This document shows, piece by piece, positions 4,542 to 20,390 of a stretch of 20,507 nucleotides of DNA. A program made the translations under genes and the position numbers. A model generated the notes under the pieces. The model searched no databases and was not told where the DNA came from. It worked only from the letters and a program-made list of their open reading frames with translations. The DNA comes from a virus. The stretch is taken from IMG/VR virus record IMGVR_UViG_3300035204_000841, positions 1 to 20,507 of that record. One strand, 5' to 3'. Within the stretch, counting starts at the first letter, position 1. Every line of letters begins with the position of its first letter.

Positions 4542-5303
4542 TTATCCTTCTATTACATCACCCCACAATGTGGTGCGACCTTTTATTATTTCAACAACTT
4601 CCACTTTGAAAGTTCCGTTCTTAAACCAATCTATTATTGCAAAACCATGATTCCAGTTATGCAATCTACCCCTTAACCATTTATTCTTTTCACGACTCAT
4701 ATCTTTTAAACAACCTAAAGACCAAGCCCCGATTGTACCACCAAGTTTAGTAAGTGTATGCCTCTGGAAATCGTGTACGTGTCCATATATAATATTCTCT
4801 CCGTAACATTCCAAATGCTTCTTAGCATGGTATGTAGTAGCATAAGCACCATGTATAAACGTTAATTTTCCTATTTTAAGAGGCTCATTGTAACTAAGGT
4901 ACTTGTAACCACGTTCTTTCCATTTACATGCCTTCTTGAAGGTATATTCGTCCATGTAAGGGTATCTCTCAACGAATGCATCTAACCACTCATCATGATT
5001 ACCTGCACAGATGTAACGCTTCTTGCATTTCACTTCATCAAGTACAGTATCAATCTGGTCTATGCCTTCGTTGACCTTTTCAATCTCTGAGTCAATTAAA
5101 GGTATCTGATATTCTAATGGAGGTAATTTCTTGCCTTTATACCTCCATGCGCTCACCGTTTCCCACTCCCCTACATCACCAAGGTTAATAAAGATATCTG
5201 GCTTAATCCTCTTTATTCCTTTCAATACCACATTCAGAGCTGTTTGGTCGTGAATGGGGAAGTGTTGGTCAGGTATTACGACTGCTCTTTTGGATAATTC
5301 CAA
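4542..5303 (-). CDS. Calcineurin-like metallophosphoesterase
   Basis: This 253-residue protein has every motif of the binuclear metallophosphoesterase fold in order: PDQH (D12, H14), LGDVGEW (D43), GNHDEW (N102, H103), FIHG (H151) and GHVH (H175, H177). Enzymes of this fold use two metal ions to hydrolyse phosphomono- or diesters; the substrate cannot be read from sequence. No signal peptide is seen. The start is a TTG at 5303 because a TGA lies two codons upstream in frame; GGGAG sits 11 bases before it. The gene follows the endolysin, with a possible 27-codon ORF bridging the gap, and precedes virion genes. Metallophosphoesterases in phages are more often found with replication genes, so a place in the late lysis/virion operon is notable. 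Confidence 0.92.
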   Translation of the reverse strand: MELSKRAVVIPDQHFPIHDQTALNVVLKGIKRIKPDIFINLGDVGEWETVSAWRYKGKKLPPLEYQIPLIDSEIEKVNEGIDQIDTVLDEVKCKKRYICAGNHDEWLDAFVERYPYMDEYTFKKACKWKERGYKYLSYNEPLKIGKLTFIHGAYATTYHAKKHLECYGENIIYGHVHDFQRHTLTKLGGTIGAWSLGCLKDMSREKNKWLRGRLHNWNHGFAIIDWFKNGTFKVEVVEIIKGRTTLWGDVIEG

Positions 5304-16084: not shown

Positions 16085-17581
16085 TTAAGCAGTCATCCAG
16101 TCTAATCCGTCTCTTAACAGAGGATTTCTGACTGGTTTCTCATCATTTTCTTCGCTATTATGACTAGGAGGGTATATCTTTTTAGTCGCATAATACAGAC
16201 CATCGAGCAAATCATCATGTTTTCCTCTTGGATACATCAACAGCTCATCATGTAAAGCCTGCATATTCTTATCCATAAAAAACTTGCCTTTTGCAAACCA
16301 TGGTTGCATAGTTTCAAGTCGAGACGACTTAGAGTTTCTTGGTGATTCTTTTATTTCTAATCCAGGAACAAATAGGTTTTCTTCTTCACATCTTTGACGA
16401 AGATACTCTCTTAACATCTCTTGATAACCAACAGATTCTATTCGTGTCTTCTCAGGTTTATACTTTTTAACTTGAGTCAAGATTGCTTCTGCTACTTTCA
16501 TAGGGGTAGCACGATTACGATAGTAAGGAAGTACAAATCTATTGTCTTCGTTATCCACAGCTACGGATACAACTACGGAGAAGTCGGCTGTTTGCCTTGT
16601 GGAAGAAGCTGGGTCTACCCCCATGAAAATATTAACAGGTCTTTTTTCATCGACCTTCACACCTTTTAATTCTTTTAAATGCATAACGGGGCCTGCATCT
16701 TCAAATAACAGGGCACCTTTATAATAGTTTATATATTCTTCTTTAAATAGTTGGTCTTCATCACCAACTACTTCACACATATATTCCCTATAAAAGACAG
16801 AAACTCTATTGATACTTTCAAGTTCTGCTTTCTTTTTTATAAGTTTTTTAAGAGGTTGCCATTCTTCCCACAATGCAACCTTTTTCTCAAGGTCTGGTTT
16901 GAATAGCATATTCTTCCAGCCTTCCATTTCTTTTAGTGTTTCCACTATACACCTTTGATGGATAGGAGTTCCTATAATTGCAATACGCCCTTTAATAGGG
17001 TCTAGTGAAGGTATTGCAGATTGTAATAACCATCTAAGGTTTGACTCCATAGCCTCTGAAGTCTTTGTATTATTCTCATCTTCTGGGTCATCTACGATTA
17101 TAAGGGTAGGTCTTTGATTCCCATGCTTAATACCACGTAACTGCTGGCCAGTACCTTTGCATATAATCATACTACCATCTTTTAACTCTATCTCAGATTT
17201 TGCCCAAGATTTTGCAGAGTTAACACCCCAGTACCCGAATAATGACCTAAATTGCTCTGAATAATCAAATACATCTTTAATAGTACCTAATAGCTTAATT
17301 GCATGGTCTTGAGTTCTAGATACAAGCACAATCAACTTAGGTCCTTTATCGAACATTAAGTGATGTAATGGAAACACGCCACCTACTATAGAAGACTTAG
17401 CATGTCCTCTAGGTGCTATAATGTTTAATTGCTTTTGTTTTTCGTTTAAAAGCTCTTCTGCTATCTGATAATGAAAATCAGGGGAAGCAGCAGAAAACAT
17501 ATTCGGCATTACTACCTTGCCGAACAATATCATGTTAGTAGATAACTTCTTTATTACTTCGGAGTGTTGTTTTTTATCCAT
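16085..17581 (-). CDS. terL: Terminase large subunit
   Basis: This 498-residue protein has the packaging ATPase motifs: Walker A-like APRGHAKSS (about 56-64), Walker B LIIVDDPEDEN (160-170) and coupling motif IIGTP (202-206). The C-terminal RNase H-like nuclease carries its acidic residues at MGVDPASS (D323), RIESVG (E382) and HDDLLDGL (D456/D457, D460). It cuts concatemeric DNA and pumps it through the portal. The length is normal. An in-frame TGA lies two codons before the ATG at 17581, so this is the earliest start; it has no strong SD and overlaps the 53-residue gene by 28 bases, implying coupled translation. A TerS-like gene lies two genes upstream. Confidence 0.96.
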   Translation of the reverse strand: MDKKQHSEVIKKLSTNMILFGKVVMPNMFSAASPDFHYQIAEELLNEKQKQLNIIAPRGHAKSSIVGGVFPLHHLMFDKGPKLIVLVSRTQDHAIKLLGTIKDVFDYSEQFRSLFGYWGVNSAKSWAKSEIELKDGSMIICKGTGQQLRGIKHGNQRPTLIIVDDPEDENNTKTSEAMESNLRWLLQSAIPSLDPIKGRIAIIGTPIHQRCIVETLKEMEGWKNMLFKPDLEKKVALWEEWQPLKKLIKKKAELESINRVSVFYREYMCEVVGDEDQLFKEEYINYYKGALLFEDAGPVMHLKELKGVKVDEKRPVNIFMGVDPASSTRQTADFSVVVSVAVDNEDNRFVLPYYRNRATPMKVAEAILTQVKKYKPEKTRIESVGYQEMLREYLRQRCEEENLFVPGLEIKESPRNSKSSRLETMQPWFAKGKFFMDKNMQALHDELLMYPRGKHDDLLDGLYYATKKIYPPSHNSEENDEKPVRNPLLRDGLDWMTA

Positions 17582-18665: not shown

Positions 18666-18690
18666 TCTTCTCCGTTACACGTGAACTACA

Positions 18691-18702
18691 TATCACGTGA
18701 TA
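18691..18702. promoter_or_regulatory. 12-base perfect palindrome TATCACGTGATA
   Basis: The sequence is identical to its own reverse complement over 12 bases and centred on CACGTG. A second CACGTG lies at 18678-18683, nine bases from the TerS-like start site's ribosome-binding region. The pair is placed between the upstream inverted repeat and the first late gene, a likely spot for an operator. What binds it is unknown. Confidence 0.5.
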
Positions 18703-18754
18703 AGTAATATACGTATGCAGTATTTTCTCGTGACATACAACACACGTATAACCA

Positions 18755-18794
18755 CTCCTTATGAATTATACCTTAAGTAATAATTCATGAGGAG
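18755..18794. promoter_or_regulatory. 40-base inverted repeat with embedded TATAAT
   Basis: The arms pair over 15 bases (one G-T pair), then two mismatches, then a CTTAAG centre. On the minus strand bases 18770-18765 read TATAAT, a perfect -10 hexamer pointing at the TerS-like gene, but no good -35 is seen. On the plus strand TACCTTAAGTAATA (18769-18782) matches the rightward element TACCTTATGTATGA at 11 of 14 positions. There is no U-tract, so it is more likely an operator over a promoter than a terminator. Confidence 0.45.
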
Positions 18795-18796
18795 GC

Positions 18797-18811
18797 GTGA
18801 ATACTATTCAC
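18797..18811. promoter_or_regulatory. 15-base perfect palindrome GTGAATACTATTCAC
   Basis: Two seven-base arms are symmetrical around a single central base. It overlaps the stop codon of the 78-residue gene and lies two bases from the 40-base inverted repeat. A repressor or other dimeric protein could bind it. It is too short and lacks a U-tract for a terminator. Confidence 0.4.
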
Positions 18812-19044
18812 CTCTCCTCTTCTTCCTCTATTCTATTAAGGCGTTGTTCTAACATACGTGTAATGATTTCACGTTCAGCAGTTAACGCTTGATGTATGTC
18901 CTCTACTGACATGTCACCCATATCACGTACTACAAACGTGCCTGTTTGCATATCAAAGACATCATACGTGTCATCTATATCACGTGTAACGCAGTCACTC
19001 TTGTGTTTCTTATCGTCTTTCATACGGATGAAGTTACGGTACAT
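18808..19044 (-). CDS. Small acidic hypothetical protein, 78 aa
   Basis: Not recognised. The frame runs from ATG at 19044 to TGA at 18808, with a second possible start at 19023 giving 71 residues; neither has a clear SD. The N-terminus is basic (RNFIRMKDDKKHKSD) and the rest is acidic, ending RIEEEEER. The C-terminal half (SVEDIHQALTAEREIITRML) is probably a single long helix. It is the only leftward gene in the regulatory right end, separated from the late block by 142 bases of palindromes. Its coding DNA carries several CACGT/ACGTG words, one of them inside the shared repeat TCACGTGTAACGCAG that recurs at 19128. A small regulator is possible but unproved. Confidence 0.6.
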   Translation of the reverse strand: MYRNFIRMKDDKKHKSDCVTRDIDDTYDVFDMQTGTFVVRDMGDMSVEDIHQALTAEREIITRMLEQRLNRIEEEEER

Positions 19045-19143
19045 TGATTGATAAAGTCAATAGTTTACGAATTTTTTTCTAAAAAATTTTATATCTTTCA
19101 TGTATTGTAGTCTACACGTTATACATGTCACGTGTAACGCAGA

Positions 19144-19177
19144 CGTCAGCTGACGAAAGTTAGACGAAACGACGAAA
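19144..19177. repeat. Palindrome CGTCAGCTGACG followed by three GACGAAA iterons
   Basis: The 12-base perfect palindrome (19144-19155) runs directly into three direct copies of GACGAAA at 19152-19158, 19163-19169 and 19171-19177, spaced 11 and 8 bases apart. The first copy overlaps the palindrome. Short phased repeats like this can be binding sites for an initiator or regulator. Confidence 0.5.
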
Positions 19178-19199
19178 ACTTTACGTAGAATGGGAGTGA

Positions 19200-19317
19200 G
19201 GGATATACATTAGATGTACCCCCCTACGTTTCAGGGTACACTCTTCCAGAACGGTTGAGTTCAAGTTGGTTCGTTCTGTTGAGTGTACTGGAGGTACACA
19301 TCTAATACATCTATCCC
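19200..19317. repeat. Long imperfect hairpin, 118 bases
   Basis: Nested complementary blocks occur in the correct order: GGGATA/TATCCC (19200-19205 with 19312-19317), ATTAGATG/CATCTAAT (19209-19216 with 19299-19306), TACC/GGTA (19217-19220 with 19293-19296), GTACACTC/GAGTGTAC (19236-19243 with 19281-19288) and CAGAACG/CGTTCTG (19247-19253 with 19272-19278), around an 18-base loop. About 33 base pairs are seen by eye, interrupted by bulges. It lies 44 bases before the first rightward promoter-like element. It could be an RNA, an origin structure or a binding platform. Confidence 0.65.
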
Positions 19318-19354
19318 CAACGCACACGCACACACAAGTAATGTAATCCACACG

Positions 19355-19375
19355 TTTTTTATACCTTATGTATGA
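19355..19375 (+). promoter_or_regulatory. Rightward promoter-like element 1 (TACCTTATGTATGA)
   Basis: A T-tract (19355-19360) leads into TACCTTATGTATGA at 19362-19375. The same 14 bases occur, identical, at 19793, 20027 and 20377, each before a small rightward gene. Here the next start codon is 47 bases downstream. No paired -35/-10 is needed to explain it, so a phage-type single-subunit polymerase promoter is a reasonable reading. Confidence 0.7.
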
Positions 19376-19422
19376 TGACATGGTGTTATCAAATTAACGT
19401 TAATTAAATGGAGTTAGATAAA

Positions 19423-19563
19423 ATGAAAATAGAAATCACATTGAAGCCAAGAAAACAACGAACTGTAACAATGGATGGTTCTACTGTTAAGAAGCCATTT
19501 ATATTGGTTAAAGGTATCCTTGAGGGTGCATACAATGGTGCTAAAGGTGCGGTTAAGAAGTAA
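19423..19563 (+). CDS. Small basic protein, 46 aa
   Basis: The frame from ATG at 19423 to TAA at 19561-19563 is preceded by GGAG nine bases upstream; an in-frame ATG at 19408 would place that GGAG inside the gene and is less likely. The peptide begins MKIEITLKPRKQRTVTMDGS and ends GAKGAVKK. It is strongly basic with little acidic content, has an N-terminal strand-like section and a short C-terminal amphipathic helix (LVKGILEGAYNGAKGAVK). No family is recognised. Its own promoter-like element and terminator make it a single-gene transcript. A nucleic-acid-binding or host-takeover role is a guess from charge and context. Confidence 0.75.
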   Translation: MKIEITLKPRKQRTVTMDGSTVKKPFILVKGILEGAYNGAKGAVKK

Positions 19564-19568
19564 ACATA

Positions 19569-19594
19569 AGAGGGGAGTTATCTCCTCTCTTTTT
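19569..19594 (+). terminator. Intrinsic terminator after 46-aa gene
   Basis: AGAGGGGAG (19569-19577) pairs with CTCCTCTCT (19582-19590) over nine positions with one G-U pair and a TTAT loop, followed by TTTT. It starts five bases after the stop codon. Confidence 0.85.
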
Positions 19595-19616
19595 AAACCC
19601 AGGCAAAAAGCATTGT

Positions 19617-19656
19617 ATTACACGTGTACTGTACTCTGACACATGTCACGTGTAAT
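19617..19656. promoter_or_regulatory. Inverted repeat ATTACACGTG / CACGTGTAAT
   Basis: Ten-base arms at 19617-19626 and 19647-19656 are perfect reverse complements, each containing CACGTG, with a 20-base spacer. The right side carries ACATGTCACGTGTAA (19641-19655), identical to 19123-19137 in the divergent gap. The span equals about four helical turns, a plausible site for a dimer of dimers. Confidence 0.55.
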
Positions 19657-19675
19657 GTTTGCTGTCAAACCCTAT

Positions 19676-19765
19676 ATCCCAACAGGACATGCCTCCCCTG
19701 TGTGTTTGTCTTACGAAATCATACAACTTAACGACAAAACACACACAACCCCATGTCCTGGGGAT
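19676..19765. repeat. Long imperfect hairpin, 90 bases
   Basis: ATCCC/GGGAT (19676-19680 with 19761-19765), CAGGACATG/CATGTCCTG (19683-19691 with 19752-19760) and TGTGTGTTTGTC with GACAAAACACACA (19699-19710 with 19733-19745, one bulged A) are nested around a 22-base loop. About 26 pairs are visible. It lies 27 bases before the second promoter-like element, echoing the hairpin before the first. Confidence 0.65.
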
Positions 19766-19787
19766 AACCTGATGTAATAGCGTATTC

Positions 19788-19806
19788 TTTTATACCTTAT
19801 GTATGA
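19788..19806 (+). promoter_or_regulatory. Rightward promoter-like element 2
   Basis: TTTTA followed by TACCTTATGTATGA (19793-19806). The start codon of the membrane protein gene is 20 bases downstream, with AAAAAGGAG between. Confidence 0.7.
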
Positions 19807-19826
19807 ACAACTAAAAAGGAGATAAA

Positions 19827-20003
19827 ATGCTACCGTATCAATCAGAAGATTTACGTTCTTTCAAAGAACTCTATCAAGAGTTAAGACAAGAGCGTGATGA
19901 ATTAAAGCAATTTAAGGAAAACATCACATGGTCTGTGTATGTATTTCTTGCTTGTGCTGGTTTCGCTATGATTTATAACATAGCGTCTAGTATATTATTC
20001 TAA
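19827..20003 (+). CDS. Small single-span membrane protein, 58 aa
   Basis: The frame from ATG at 19827 to TAA at 20001-20003 has AAAAAGGAG five bases before the start. The N-terminal 32 residues are charged and helical (SEDLRSFKELYQELRQERDE), and a hydrophobic stretch of about 22 residues follows (TWSVYVFLACAGFAMIYNIA, near 34-53), ending SSILF. It would sit in the inner membrane by one span with a short coiled coil on one side. No family is recognised. The last base of the stop is the first base of the terminator stem, an extremely compact arrangement. Superinfection exclusion or early membrane takeover are typical roles for such genes, but this is only a possibility. Confidence 0.8.
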   Translation: MLPYQSEDLRSFKELYQELRQERDELKQFKENITWSVYVFLACAGFAMIYNIASSILF

Positions 20004-20027
20004 GAGAGCCTCGTGCTCTCTTTTTTT
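20003..20027 (+). terminator. Intrinsic terminator after 58-aa gene
   Basis: AGAGAGC (20003-20009) and GCTCTCT (20015-20021) pair perfectly around a five-base loop, followed by a T-tract to 20027. The tract runs directly into the next promoter-like element. Confidence 0.9.
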
Positions 20028-20040
20028 ACCTTATGTATGA
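20021..20040 (+). promoter_or_regulatory. Rightward promoter-like element 3, fused to terminator
   Basis: The T-tract of the upstream terminator continues into TACCTTATGTATGA (20027-20040). Any -35 box would lie inside the terminator stem, which argues against an ordinary sigma-70 promoter. The next gene starts 157 bases downstream, beyond a structured leader. Confidence 0.7.
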
Positions 20041-20047
20041 ACAATAT

Positions 20048-20176
20048 AAGGGTAGGAGGTTCAGAGCAGGGGCACGTACCGGCCGTTTTGGATTTCGGCC
20101 GTAATTCTTTACGGAAGTCCGGTGTAAGTTCAGAAATGGACACGTGGTGGTTCAATCCCACATACCTCTTACCCTT
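20048..20176 (+). ncRNA. Structured leader with tRNA-like T-loop, possible regulatory RNA
   Basis: A 13-base closing stem pairs 20048-20060 (AAGGGTAGGAGGT) with 20164-20176 (ACCTCTTACCCTT), with one G-U pair. Inside, CGGCCG/CGGCCG (20080-20085 with 20096-20101) competes for bases with CCGTAA/TTACGG (20099-20104 with 20109-20114), so two folds exclude each other. Near the 3' end GTGG/CCAC (20147-20150 with 20158-20161) closes a seven-base loop that reads GTTCAATCC with its closing pair, matching the tRNA T-arm consensus GTTCRANNC. No D-arm, anticodon arm or CCA end can be drawn, so it is not a standard tRNA. It sits between the promoter-like element and the ribosome-binding site of the next gene, which suits a cis-acting RNA switch or a processed small RNA. 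Confidence 0.55.
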
Positions 20177-20197
20177 TCAATTAAAAGGAGATGAATA

Positions 20198-20353
20198 ATG
20201 AATCAAATAGAAAGAGATAGGGTCAATAGAAAGCTTGACACTGATGAGAAGATTGTAATAAAAGCTTTAACTGAAAAGGTTGCATCTTTAAAGTTTGAAA
20301 TCAAAAGATTAAAAGTTGAAAATGCAAGATTGGAAGGTGAGTTTAAGAAATAA
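20198..20353 (+). CDS. Small coiled-coil protein, 51 aa
   Basis: The frame from ATG at 20198 to TAA at 20351-20353 is preceded by AAAAGGAG; an ATG at 20191 in another frame stops after eight codons. The peptide begins MNQIERDRVNRKLDTDEKIV and continues with regularly spaced hydrophobic residues (ALTEKVASLKFEIKRLKVEN, then ARLEGEFKK). This is a typical dimeric coiled coil for almost the whole length. Nothing suggests an enzyme. Such small proteins can be adaptors that bind and alter a host protein. Its leader contains the structured element described at 20048-20176, so expression may be controlled at the RNA level. Confidence 0.75.
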   Translation: MNQIERDRVNRKLDTDEKIVIKALTEKVASLKFEIKRLKVENARLEGEFKK

Positions 20354-20377
20354 GAGGGCTTCGTGCTCTCTTTTTTT
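20353..20377 (+). terminator. Intrinsic terminator after 51-aa gene
   Basis: AGAGGGC (20353-20359) pairs with GCTCTCT (20365-20371) with one G-U pair and a five-base loop, followed by a T-tract to 20377. It is nearly identical to the terminator at 20003 and again starts on the last base of the stop codon. Confidence 0.88.
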
Positions 20378-20390
20378 ACCTTATGTATGA
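20371..20390 (+). promoter_or_regulatory. Rightward promoter-like element 4, fused to terminator
   Basis: The T-tract continues into TACCTTATGTATGA (20377-20390), as at element 3. The next start codon is 22 bases downstream after AAAGGAG. Confidence 0.7.

Follow-up and report, generated by a model that had tools for sequence, protein, structure and literature searches.

A non-coding site shared by a phage terminase locus and tRNA islands of Marinimicrobia is a candidate packaging start of satellite-like elements

In the portions of the literature drawn on here, some phage satellites are packaged because they carry the cos or pac sequence of their helper (PMC6092414), the PICMIs are described as minimalist marine satellites of virulent phages (PMC10803314), and tycheposons and VEIMEs are named as further elements (PMC11389934). 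Pairing satellites with helpers is presented as an open problem, hard to solve because cos and pac motifs are short, degenerate or unknown (PMC11389934). The stretch of DNA analysed here (the window, 20507 bases) is one whole IMG/VR virus record and represents a genome fragment. A non-coding site of the window was found with the same layout next to the terminase genes of uncultured ocean viruses and at the edges of gene islands from ocean bacteria, which suggests that the islands carry the site to travel inside viruses.

The phage lineage and a site kept at fixed spacing

The minus strand of the window codes for the large terminase subunit (TerL), the portal, the major head protein and further genes, while tiny genes occupy the plus strand from about 19.4 kb on (Table 1). 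Megablast of the whole window against 50,697 phage records gave zero matches; TerL showed about 25% identity to cultured phages, and the portal had no match among them. IMG/VR loci related by TerL were collected at 63–78% identity, 80 of the 105 qualifying ones being used. The 247-aa protein belongs to the small terminase subunit (TerS) family: PF03592 (Terminase small subunit) matched 18 of 33 family members (best 8e-4), the window member itself being unmatched, and the predicted model (pLDDT 75, pTM 0.42) had among its best rows in a second structure comparison phBC6A51 2ao9 (Z 7.8), NV1 TerS 7joq (5.5) and SPP1-like TerS 3zqq (5.5), values that the tool's own note places in a middling range. 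Foldseek alone retrieved no match to this model at E <= 0.001. Weak relatives (34–41%) of the 78-aa gene next to TerS were present in the same position in three of the loci retrieved by pattern (see below).

Table 1. Coordinates of the features described in the window
Feature	Position	Strand	Basis or remark
Large terminase (TerL)	16085..17581	-	phrog_38, E 1.8e-85
TerS-like gene, 247 aa	17922..18665	-	PF03592 in family members and structural rows
Paired CACGTG palindromes, TerS-side spacer	18678..18699	.	operator-like; relatives have other palindromes in the same spacer
Small gene, 78 aa, between shared site and TerS	18808..19044	-	no PHROG match
CACGTG-type inverted repeat TACACGT/ACGTGTA, upstream of shared site	19113..19136	.	
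Conserved shared site, ~94 bp	19170..19263	+	fixed-register columns in 88 non-redundant phage records
Hairpin 1, overlapping and following shared site	19200..19317	+	z -2.99
Promoter-like element 1	19362..19375	+	copy of TACCTTATGTATGA
Tiny gene 1, 46 aa	19423..19563	+	ribosome-binding site and ORF
Terminator 1	19569..19596	+	terminator scan
Second CACGTG inverted repeat ATTACACGTG/CACGTGTAAT, 10-bp arms	19617..19656	.	
Hairpin 2	19674..19767	+	z -7.37; no homologue identified
Promoter-like element 2	19793..19806	+	copy of TACCTTATGTATGA
Tiny gene 2, 58 aa	19827..20003	+	ORF
Terminator 2, T-run abutting element 3	20002..20026	+	terminator scan
Promoter-like element 3	20027..20040	+	copy of TACCTTATGTATGA
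Structured non-coding RNA with tRNA-like T-arm sequence	20041..20182	+	z -3.96
Tiny gene 3, 51 aa	20198..20353	+	ORF
Terminator 3, abutting element 4	20352..20376	+	terminator scan
Promoter-like element 4	20377..20390	+	copy of TACCTTATGTATGA

An 18-base pattern matched 87 IMG/VR stretches, which together with the TerL relatives made up 147 records, 88 of them non-redundant; two loci, L123 and L156, are probably chance matches. Across the relatives, records cut by contig ends being left out, a fixed register was observed, with an A-run at -11 to -8, TAGAATG at 0, then G.GTG.G.GATATA, ACCCCC at +32 and GTTGA near +68. The corresponding parts of the window are an A-run block, TAGAATGGGAGTGAGGGATATA (19186–19207), ACCCCCC (19218–19224) and GTTGAG (from 19254), in the order A-run, TAGAATGNGNGTGNGNGATATA, ACCCCCC at +32 and GTTGA at +68/69. 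This stretch, lying just before and inside hairpin 1, is the only part kept across phages at fixed spacing. A model of 94 positions, R1, built from 69 sequences including six host copies (see below), matched the window at 19174–19261 (E 1.8e-14), and the site was in single copy in the five phages searched with it; the list for alignment A1 left out L123, L156, L072, L073 and L178. The identity of the site with an integron attC was considered by eye and discarded, GTTGA preceding its complement in the site and the order in attC being the reverse.

In most pattern loci the site lies 0.16 to about 0.9 kb upstream of a TerS-like gene (up to 3.9 kb in a few) and, where terminase genes are visible, 0.9 to 4.8 kb upstream of TerL, on the opposite strand. 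Other arrangements were limited to truncated loci, to the chance matches L123 and L156 and to the bacterial locus L180. It points away from TerS and TerL even where TerL identity is 35–38%. Packaging sites typically lie at such a place upstream of TerS, as in lambda-like phages. The contig ends speak against a cos with defined cohesive ends, no peak of them being found at the site: 116 of 132 contigs run at least 300 nt past it, and the 11 ending within 150 nt downstream do so at scattered distances. If the site serves packaging, this lack of a fixed cut at contig ends would favour pac over cos.

A separate observation on this lineage concerns a 2651-aa late protein (L091:6291-14246, minus strand, with relatives in contigs G001–G003) having an invariant RVPxDSxSGxR...GGADKDSD stretch (DxDxD), which calls to mind two-barrel RNA polymerases, for instance the crAss-like virion polymerase. 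Pfam and PHROG gave no match for this protein, and PDB sequences no credible one. The T7-type RNA polymerase family PF00940 was found in none of 19 contigs, a result that is uninformative since the control gave no match either.

The site in Marinimicrobia chromosomes, at the edge of tRNA islands

Scanning genomes of all phyla with a 23-base pattern retrieved a single contig, from a Candidatus Neomarinimicrobiota MAG, with restriction-modification genes and, by eye, HipAB-like genes and a tRNA 3' fragment. Admitting up to two mismatches, the pattern had 12 occurrences, spread over 11 of the 245 genomes of Marinimicrobia (reversed control, 0), and model R1, searched in Marinimicrobia only, found 118 places in 69 of the 245 at E <= 0.001, often several per genome and clustered (e.g., G078:C2 at 71320, 72785 and 74370). 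Several of the matching contigs are 280–730 kb long, thus the site-bearing DNA is chromosomal. The window TerS was detected in none of the 245 genomes, in a search run without its own positive control, which makes the site loci unlike prophages of this phage family. Judging from the sharing of the site, the phage family very likely infects Marinimicrobia.

The surroundings were analysed for the 44 host copies that scored above 16 in fetched loci, out of the 118 places. A tRNA T-loop was found on the opposite strand 180–570 bases downstream of 25 of the 39 copies with sufficient sequence, 19 of them within 205–300 bases, as compared with 0 on the same strand downstream and with 3 and 2 on the other side; no tRNA end was in reach of the remaining 14. 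Pairs of direct repeats of at least 8 bases, about 75–165 bases downstream, accompanied 19 of the 44 copies (shuffled mean 1.1, largest 6), with no clear pair in 25, and the repeated word varied from copy to copy, as expected for integrase arm sites. The site sits at the edge of integrase-type tRNA islands, about 200–300 bp from tRNA 3' ends and beside paired direct repeats. G138:C106 and G157:C36 share one arrangement, in which the site is followed by a repeat pair, the tRNA 3' part, a second repeat pair and the 3' end of the integrase. A complete island of about 4.4 kb with tRNA is present in G157:C36, delimited by exact 54-bp att repeats at 588 and 5017. It contains an integrase fragment, the site at 4795 and, as judged by eye, genes for TetR-like, dehydrogenase-like and secreted proteins, and each of its ends has GTGTACCTT repeat pairs. 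Of 14 repeat-pair copies, this is the only one whose matching far pair falls inside the fetched stretch.

Integrase-family matches within 5 kb of the site on the same contig were obtained in 5 of 27 genomes (G138, G157, G140, G078 and G216), with two matches in G140 and only a fragment in G157; G185 has one at 8.6 kb. Among the genes flanking host sites are a type II methyltransferase, an HNH protein and the first part of a type I restriction enzyme. As to the AlpA- or Stl-type regulator and the primase-replication module characteristic of PICIs, HTH_17 was found in one island at E 2.8e-4, below the curated cut-off, and no primase was found among the ten proteins scanned.

Two further host loci were recorded. 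One (L234:4730-5467) has an HNH endonuclease and a winged-helix protein adjoining a copy of the site; in some phages there is a link between HNH proteins and cleavage at cos. The other (L224:6090-15334) has two neighbouring sites in G078:C1 with a predicted heavy-metal efflux pair between them (by eye), and an HTH_17 protein and an integrase after the second.

A site placed upstream of TerS, and carried at the att end by islands without this TerS, fits a packaging start borrowed by satellites. We propose that the site is cis-acting for phage machinery, most likely as a pac-like start of packaging carried by satellite-like tRNA islands, a proposal in which we place as much confidence as doubt. 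The phage terminase would start packaging at the single-copy site upstream of its genes; the Marinimicrobia tRNA islands, in which no phage genes were recognised, would carry the site at the end away from the integrase; during infection an excised island would be recognised via the site and then packaged. A role in packaging rather than in transcription or replication, binding by TerS and movement of the islands are what we infer from sequence comparison.

The orientation of neighbouring genes is explained more directly by a promoter and counts against packaging. So do the host copies out of reach of a tRNA end, those lacking a clear repeat pair, and the small number of integrase matches close to a site. 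Of the host copies, 36 have a near gene on the TAGAATG side, and it reads away from the site in 31 and toward it in five (eight copies are without a near gene); start codons are often 24–250 nt off, and the arrangement in phages is alike. The site could accordingly be a phage-responsive (late) promoter region, directed leftward into TerS and TerL or into island cargo, with ACCCCCC and GTTGA as activator sites. On the other hand, about 90 bp are conserved at fixed spacing to +73, probably more than a promoter usually needs, the island cargo is of mixed kinds, and co-direction with the tRNA gene could also produce the bias. On balance, we regard a late promoter as rather unlikely.

The first GTTGA is at +68/69 in 78 of 83 phages and in 32 of 43 host copies. 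Further GTTGA words at +74 to +150 numbered 38 in phages versus 4.5 in shuffled sequences (largest 12), and 9 in host copies versus 4.0 (largest 8), L123 and L156 being left out. The iteration in phages, like the single copy per phage in the five phages searched, would suit an origin for the phage replisome borrowed by satellites for amplification; likewise, in the complete island of G157:C36 no replication gene was recognised alongside the integrase fragment, the regulator and the cargo. The position upstream of TerS speaks against an origin, as does the large distance to the replication genes in a relative (primase-helicase at 31948–33723 of contig G004), and we hold this explanation to be improbable.

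Returning to the packaging start, a wider proposal is that satellites occur throughout the phylum Marinimicrobia, as cargo islands devoid of phage genes that would owe their transmissibility to about 90 bp of non-coding DNA from the packaging locus of one phage family, either copied or co-evolved. We put this forward tentatively, with slightly more reserve than conviction. If true, helper phages and satellites of an uncultured phylum would have been paired by a non-coding site, from sequence alone, and the spread of restriction-modification and other cargo among Marinimicrobia would be explained.

Hairpins, palindromes and small-gene units beside the site

According to the original prediction, a CACGTG inverted repeat, a long hairpin, a promoter-like element, a tiny gene and a terminator form a repeated module, perhaps a recombining cassette system. 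The two inverted repeats were found at the predicted coordinates, with the 15-mer ACATGTCACGTGTAA identical at 19123 and 19641. The window contains ten copies of CACGTG, where shuffled sequences have a mean of 1.36 (at most 5 in 100 shuffles), and seven of the ten fall in 18678–20146. Among 49 distinct spacers tested, 12 had an over-represented palindrome at the 5% level, AGTACT in eight and CACGTG in that of the window only. The CACGTG palindromes, which may be operators, are thus private to the window phage among these spacers. The CACGTG stem of unit 2, folded alone as RNA, was not unusual (z -1.51).

No other fold of the region is as strong as that of hairpin 2 (0 of 200 shuffles as good), and hairpin 1 was equalled by 1 of 200. 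Two 7-sequence alignments were used to search for covariation in hairpin 1; few pairs were supported, as the arms turn over and align badly, no convincing covariation was seen, and hairpin 1 is not proposed as an RNA family. The stretch from +20 to +165 folded with a mean z of -2.75 in phages (54 of 83 records below -2) versus -0.68 in host copies (8 of 43), leaving out L123, L156 (chance pattern matches) and records cut by contig ends. The hairpin is therefore an addition on the phage side; what phages and hosts have in common is the site. An early promoter followed by a leader RNA from 19186 onward, e.g., a put-type antitermination RNA reading through the unit terminators, would agree with the hairpins that follow in most phages and with the many terminators downstream. 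Retention of the site in islands that lack a strong hairpin argues against it, together with the poor covariation of hairpin 1 and its lack of an Rfam match, making a leader RNA very improbable.

The promoter-like element TACCTTATGTATGA occurs in four exact copies, all on the plus strand, while neither the reverse strand, at up to one mismatch, nor a reversed control pattern gave any match in the window. The terminator scan returned five terminator-like sites versus a shuffled mean of 1.0, recovering the three terminators of Table 1, and none of 200 shuffles folded as well as the structured RNA. The parts listed in the original prediction are real. The RNA, in a promoter-terminator unit of its own, contains GTGG-TTCAATC-CCAC, resembling a tRNA T-arm; ARAGORN did not match it, and Rfam at the gathering score matched no family in the window, hairpins and structured RNA included. 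By eye, L016 and L011 also have units that lack a gene and include similar GAGCAG and T-arm-like pieces, and a tRNA-Ile (anticodon aat) lies inside the early unit chain of L016 (228–304).

Elements 2–4 overlap no listed sigma-70 site (-35/-10 hexamers 16–18 nt apart), element 1 overlaps one 9-of-12 match, and the region has six such sites against a shuffled mean of 7.2. In two gene-less units (L010 at 1529 and L016 at 1543) the closing stems start, by eye, at the last G/A of TATGTATGA; transcription thus probably starts there, which is at odds with a sigma-70 -10 box.

Chains of units, about 80–400 bp each and a few longer, follow the site in relatives L010, L011, L013, L016, L017, L018 and L008, with a C/T-rich terminator end leading to a TATG(T/A)-type sequence, a ribosome-binding site, a small gene or none, and a terminator. 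An element matrix from 13 seed sequences, three of which look like chance matches, gave forward/reverse matches of 7/1 in L010, 16/4 in L011, 7/0 in L016, 12/2 in L008 and 4/4 in L007, and no forward match in L013, L017 and L018, which carry a diverged element, CTCTTTTTTTATG (by eye and separate pattern). The comparison comprised 56 units with protein (three first genes added by hand) and 21 without by a scripted rule that missed some genes (L011_u08, L017_u05 and, in unit 3 of the window, the gene located after the RNA). Homologous units were found at different ranks (L010_u05 and L018_u00), in swapped order (L008_u09/u11 versus L011_u10/u09) and duplicated (L011_u02 and L011_u04), indicating that element-gene-terminator units are exchanged between phages. 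Moreover, L013_u02 and L017_u09 have their first 48 bases in common and nothing further, and L017 and L018, which are near relatives, do not have the same first units. Exact search in IMG/VR for TACCTTATGTATGA with flank gave five single matches, taken as unrelated, and tiny gene 2 had one weak match, in a 354-kb contig.

The comparison with related phages therefore divides the cassette idea. Units of element, gene or RNA, and terminator do recur with varied content and order, and for these the idea stands; it is refuted for the palindromes and hairpins, neither being tied to the units. The outcome named in the original prediction as refuting it, CACGTG repeats unconserved in relatives or unlinked to the elements, is the one observed for CACGTG. 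Hairpin 1 belongs to the single-copy site next to TerS. Unit 2 is not a duplicate of unit 1, given that a search of the window with R1 gives no further site. Cassettes in which palindrome, hairpin and element move together with small genes are thus extremely unlikely. Early genes on the right side of the site are organised in promoter-gene-terminator units that phages exchange, and hairpin 1, after the site, is phage-specific.

Comparison with described satellites

PICIs such as SaPIs and EcCICFT073, as far as they are described in PMC6092414, resemble the islands reported here in being integrated, in carrying accessory genes and in sharing a sequence with a phage site near the terminase. The islands may also resemble them in having an integrase, matched near the site in 5 of 27 genomes, and in being free of phage structural genes, TerS being the phage gene searched for in the 245 host genomes. 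Unlike them, many of our islands have no recognised regulator, replication or capsid gene, the host phylum and the helpers are uncultured, and the packaging role is predicted. In the open-access literature searched, we found no report of satellites or of this site in Marinimicrobia. Tycheposons and VEIMEs are likewise mobile islands, of marine origin, bearing cargo and integrating into chromosomes; we know of no conserved non-coding site described for them in common with a named helper lineage.

I55-type genomic islands are tRNA/tmRNA islands too, with a tyrosine recombinase and with restriction-modification genes as cargo, and are transduced by a jumbo phage; the available part of PMC12595487 describes no shared packaging site for them, in contrast to the candidate one proposed here. 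PICMIs also are small and marine, with few genes and defence cargo, and have an integrase and no packaging genes, as the islands here may do; their hosts are Vibrionaceae and, within the consulted portion of PMC10803314, no cos or pac site was found. The islands of Marinimicrobia differ from PICMIs in carrying a long fixed-register site that links a phage family with islands of an uncultured marine phylum, gives host evidence for the phages, and offers a handle for finding further satellites.
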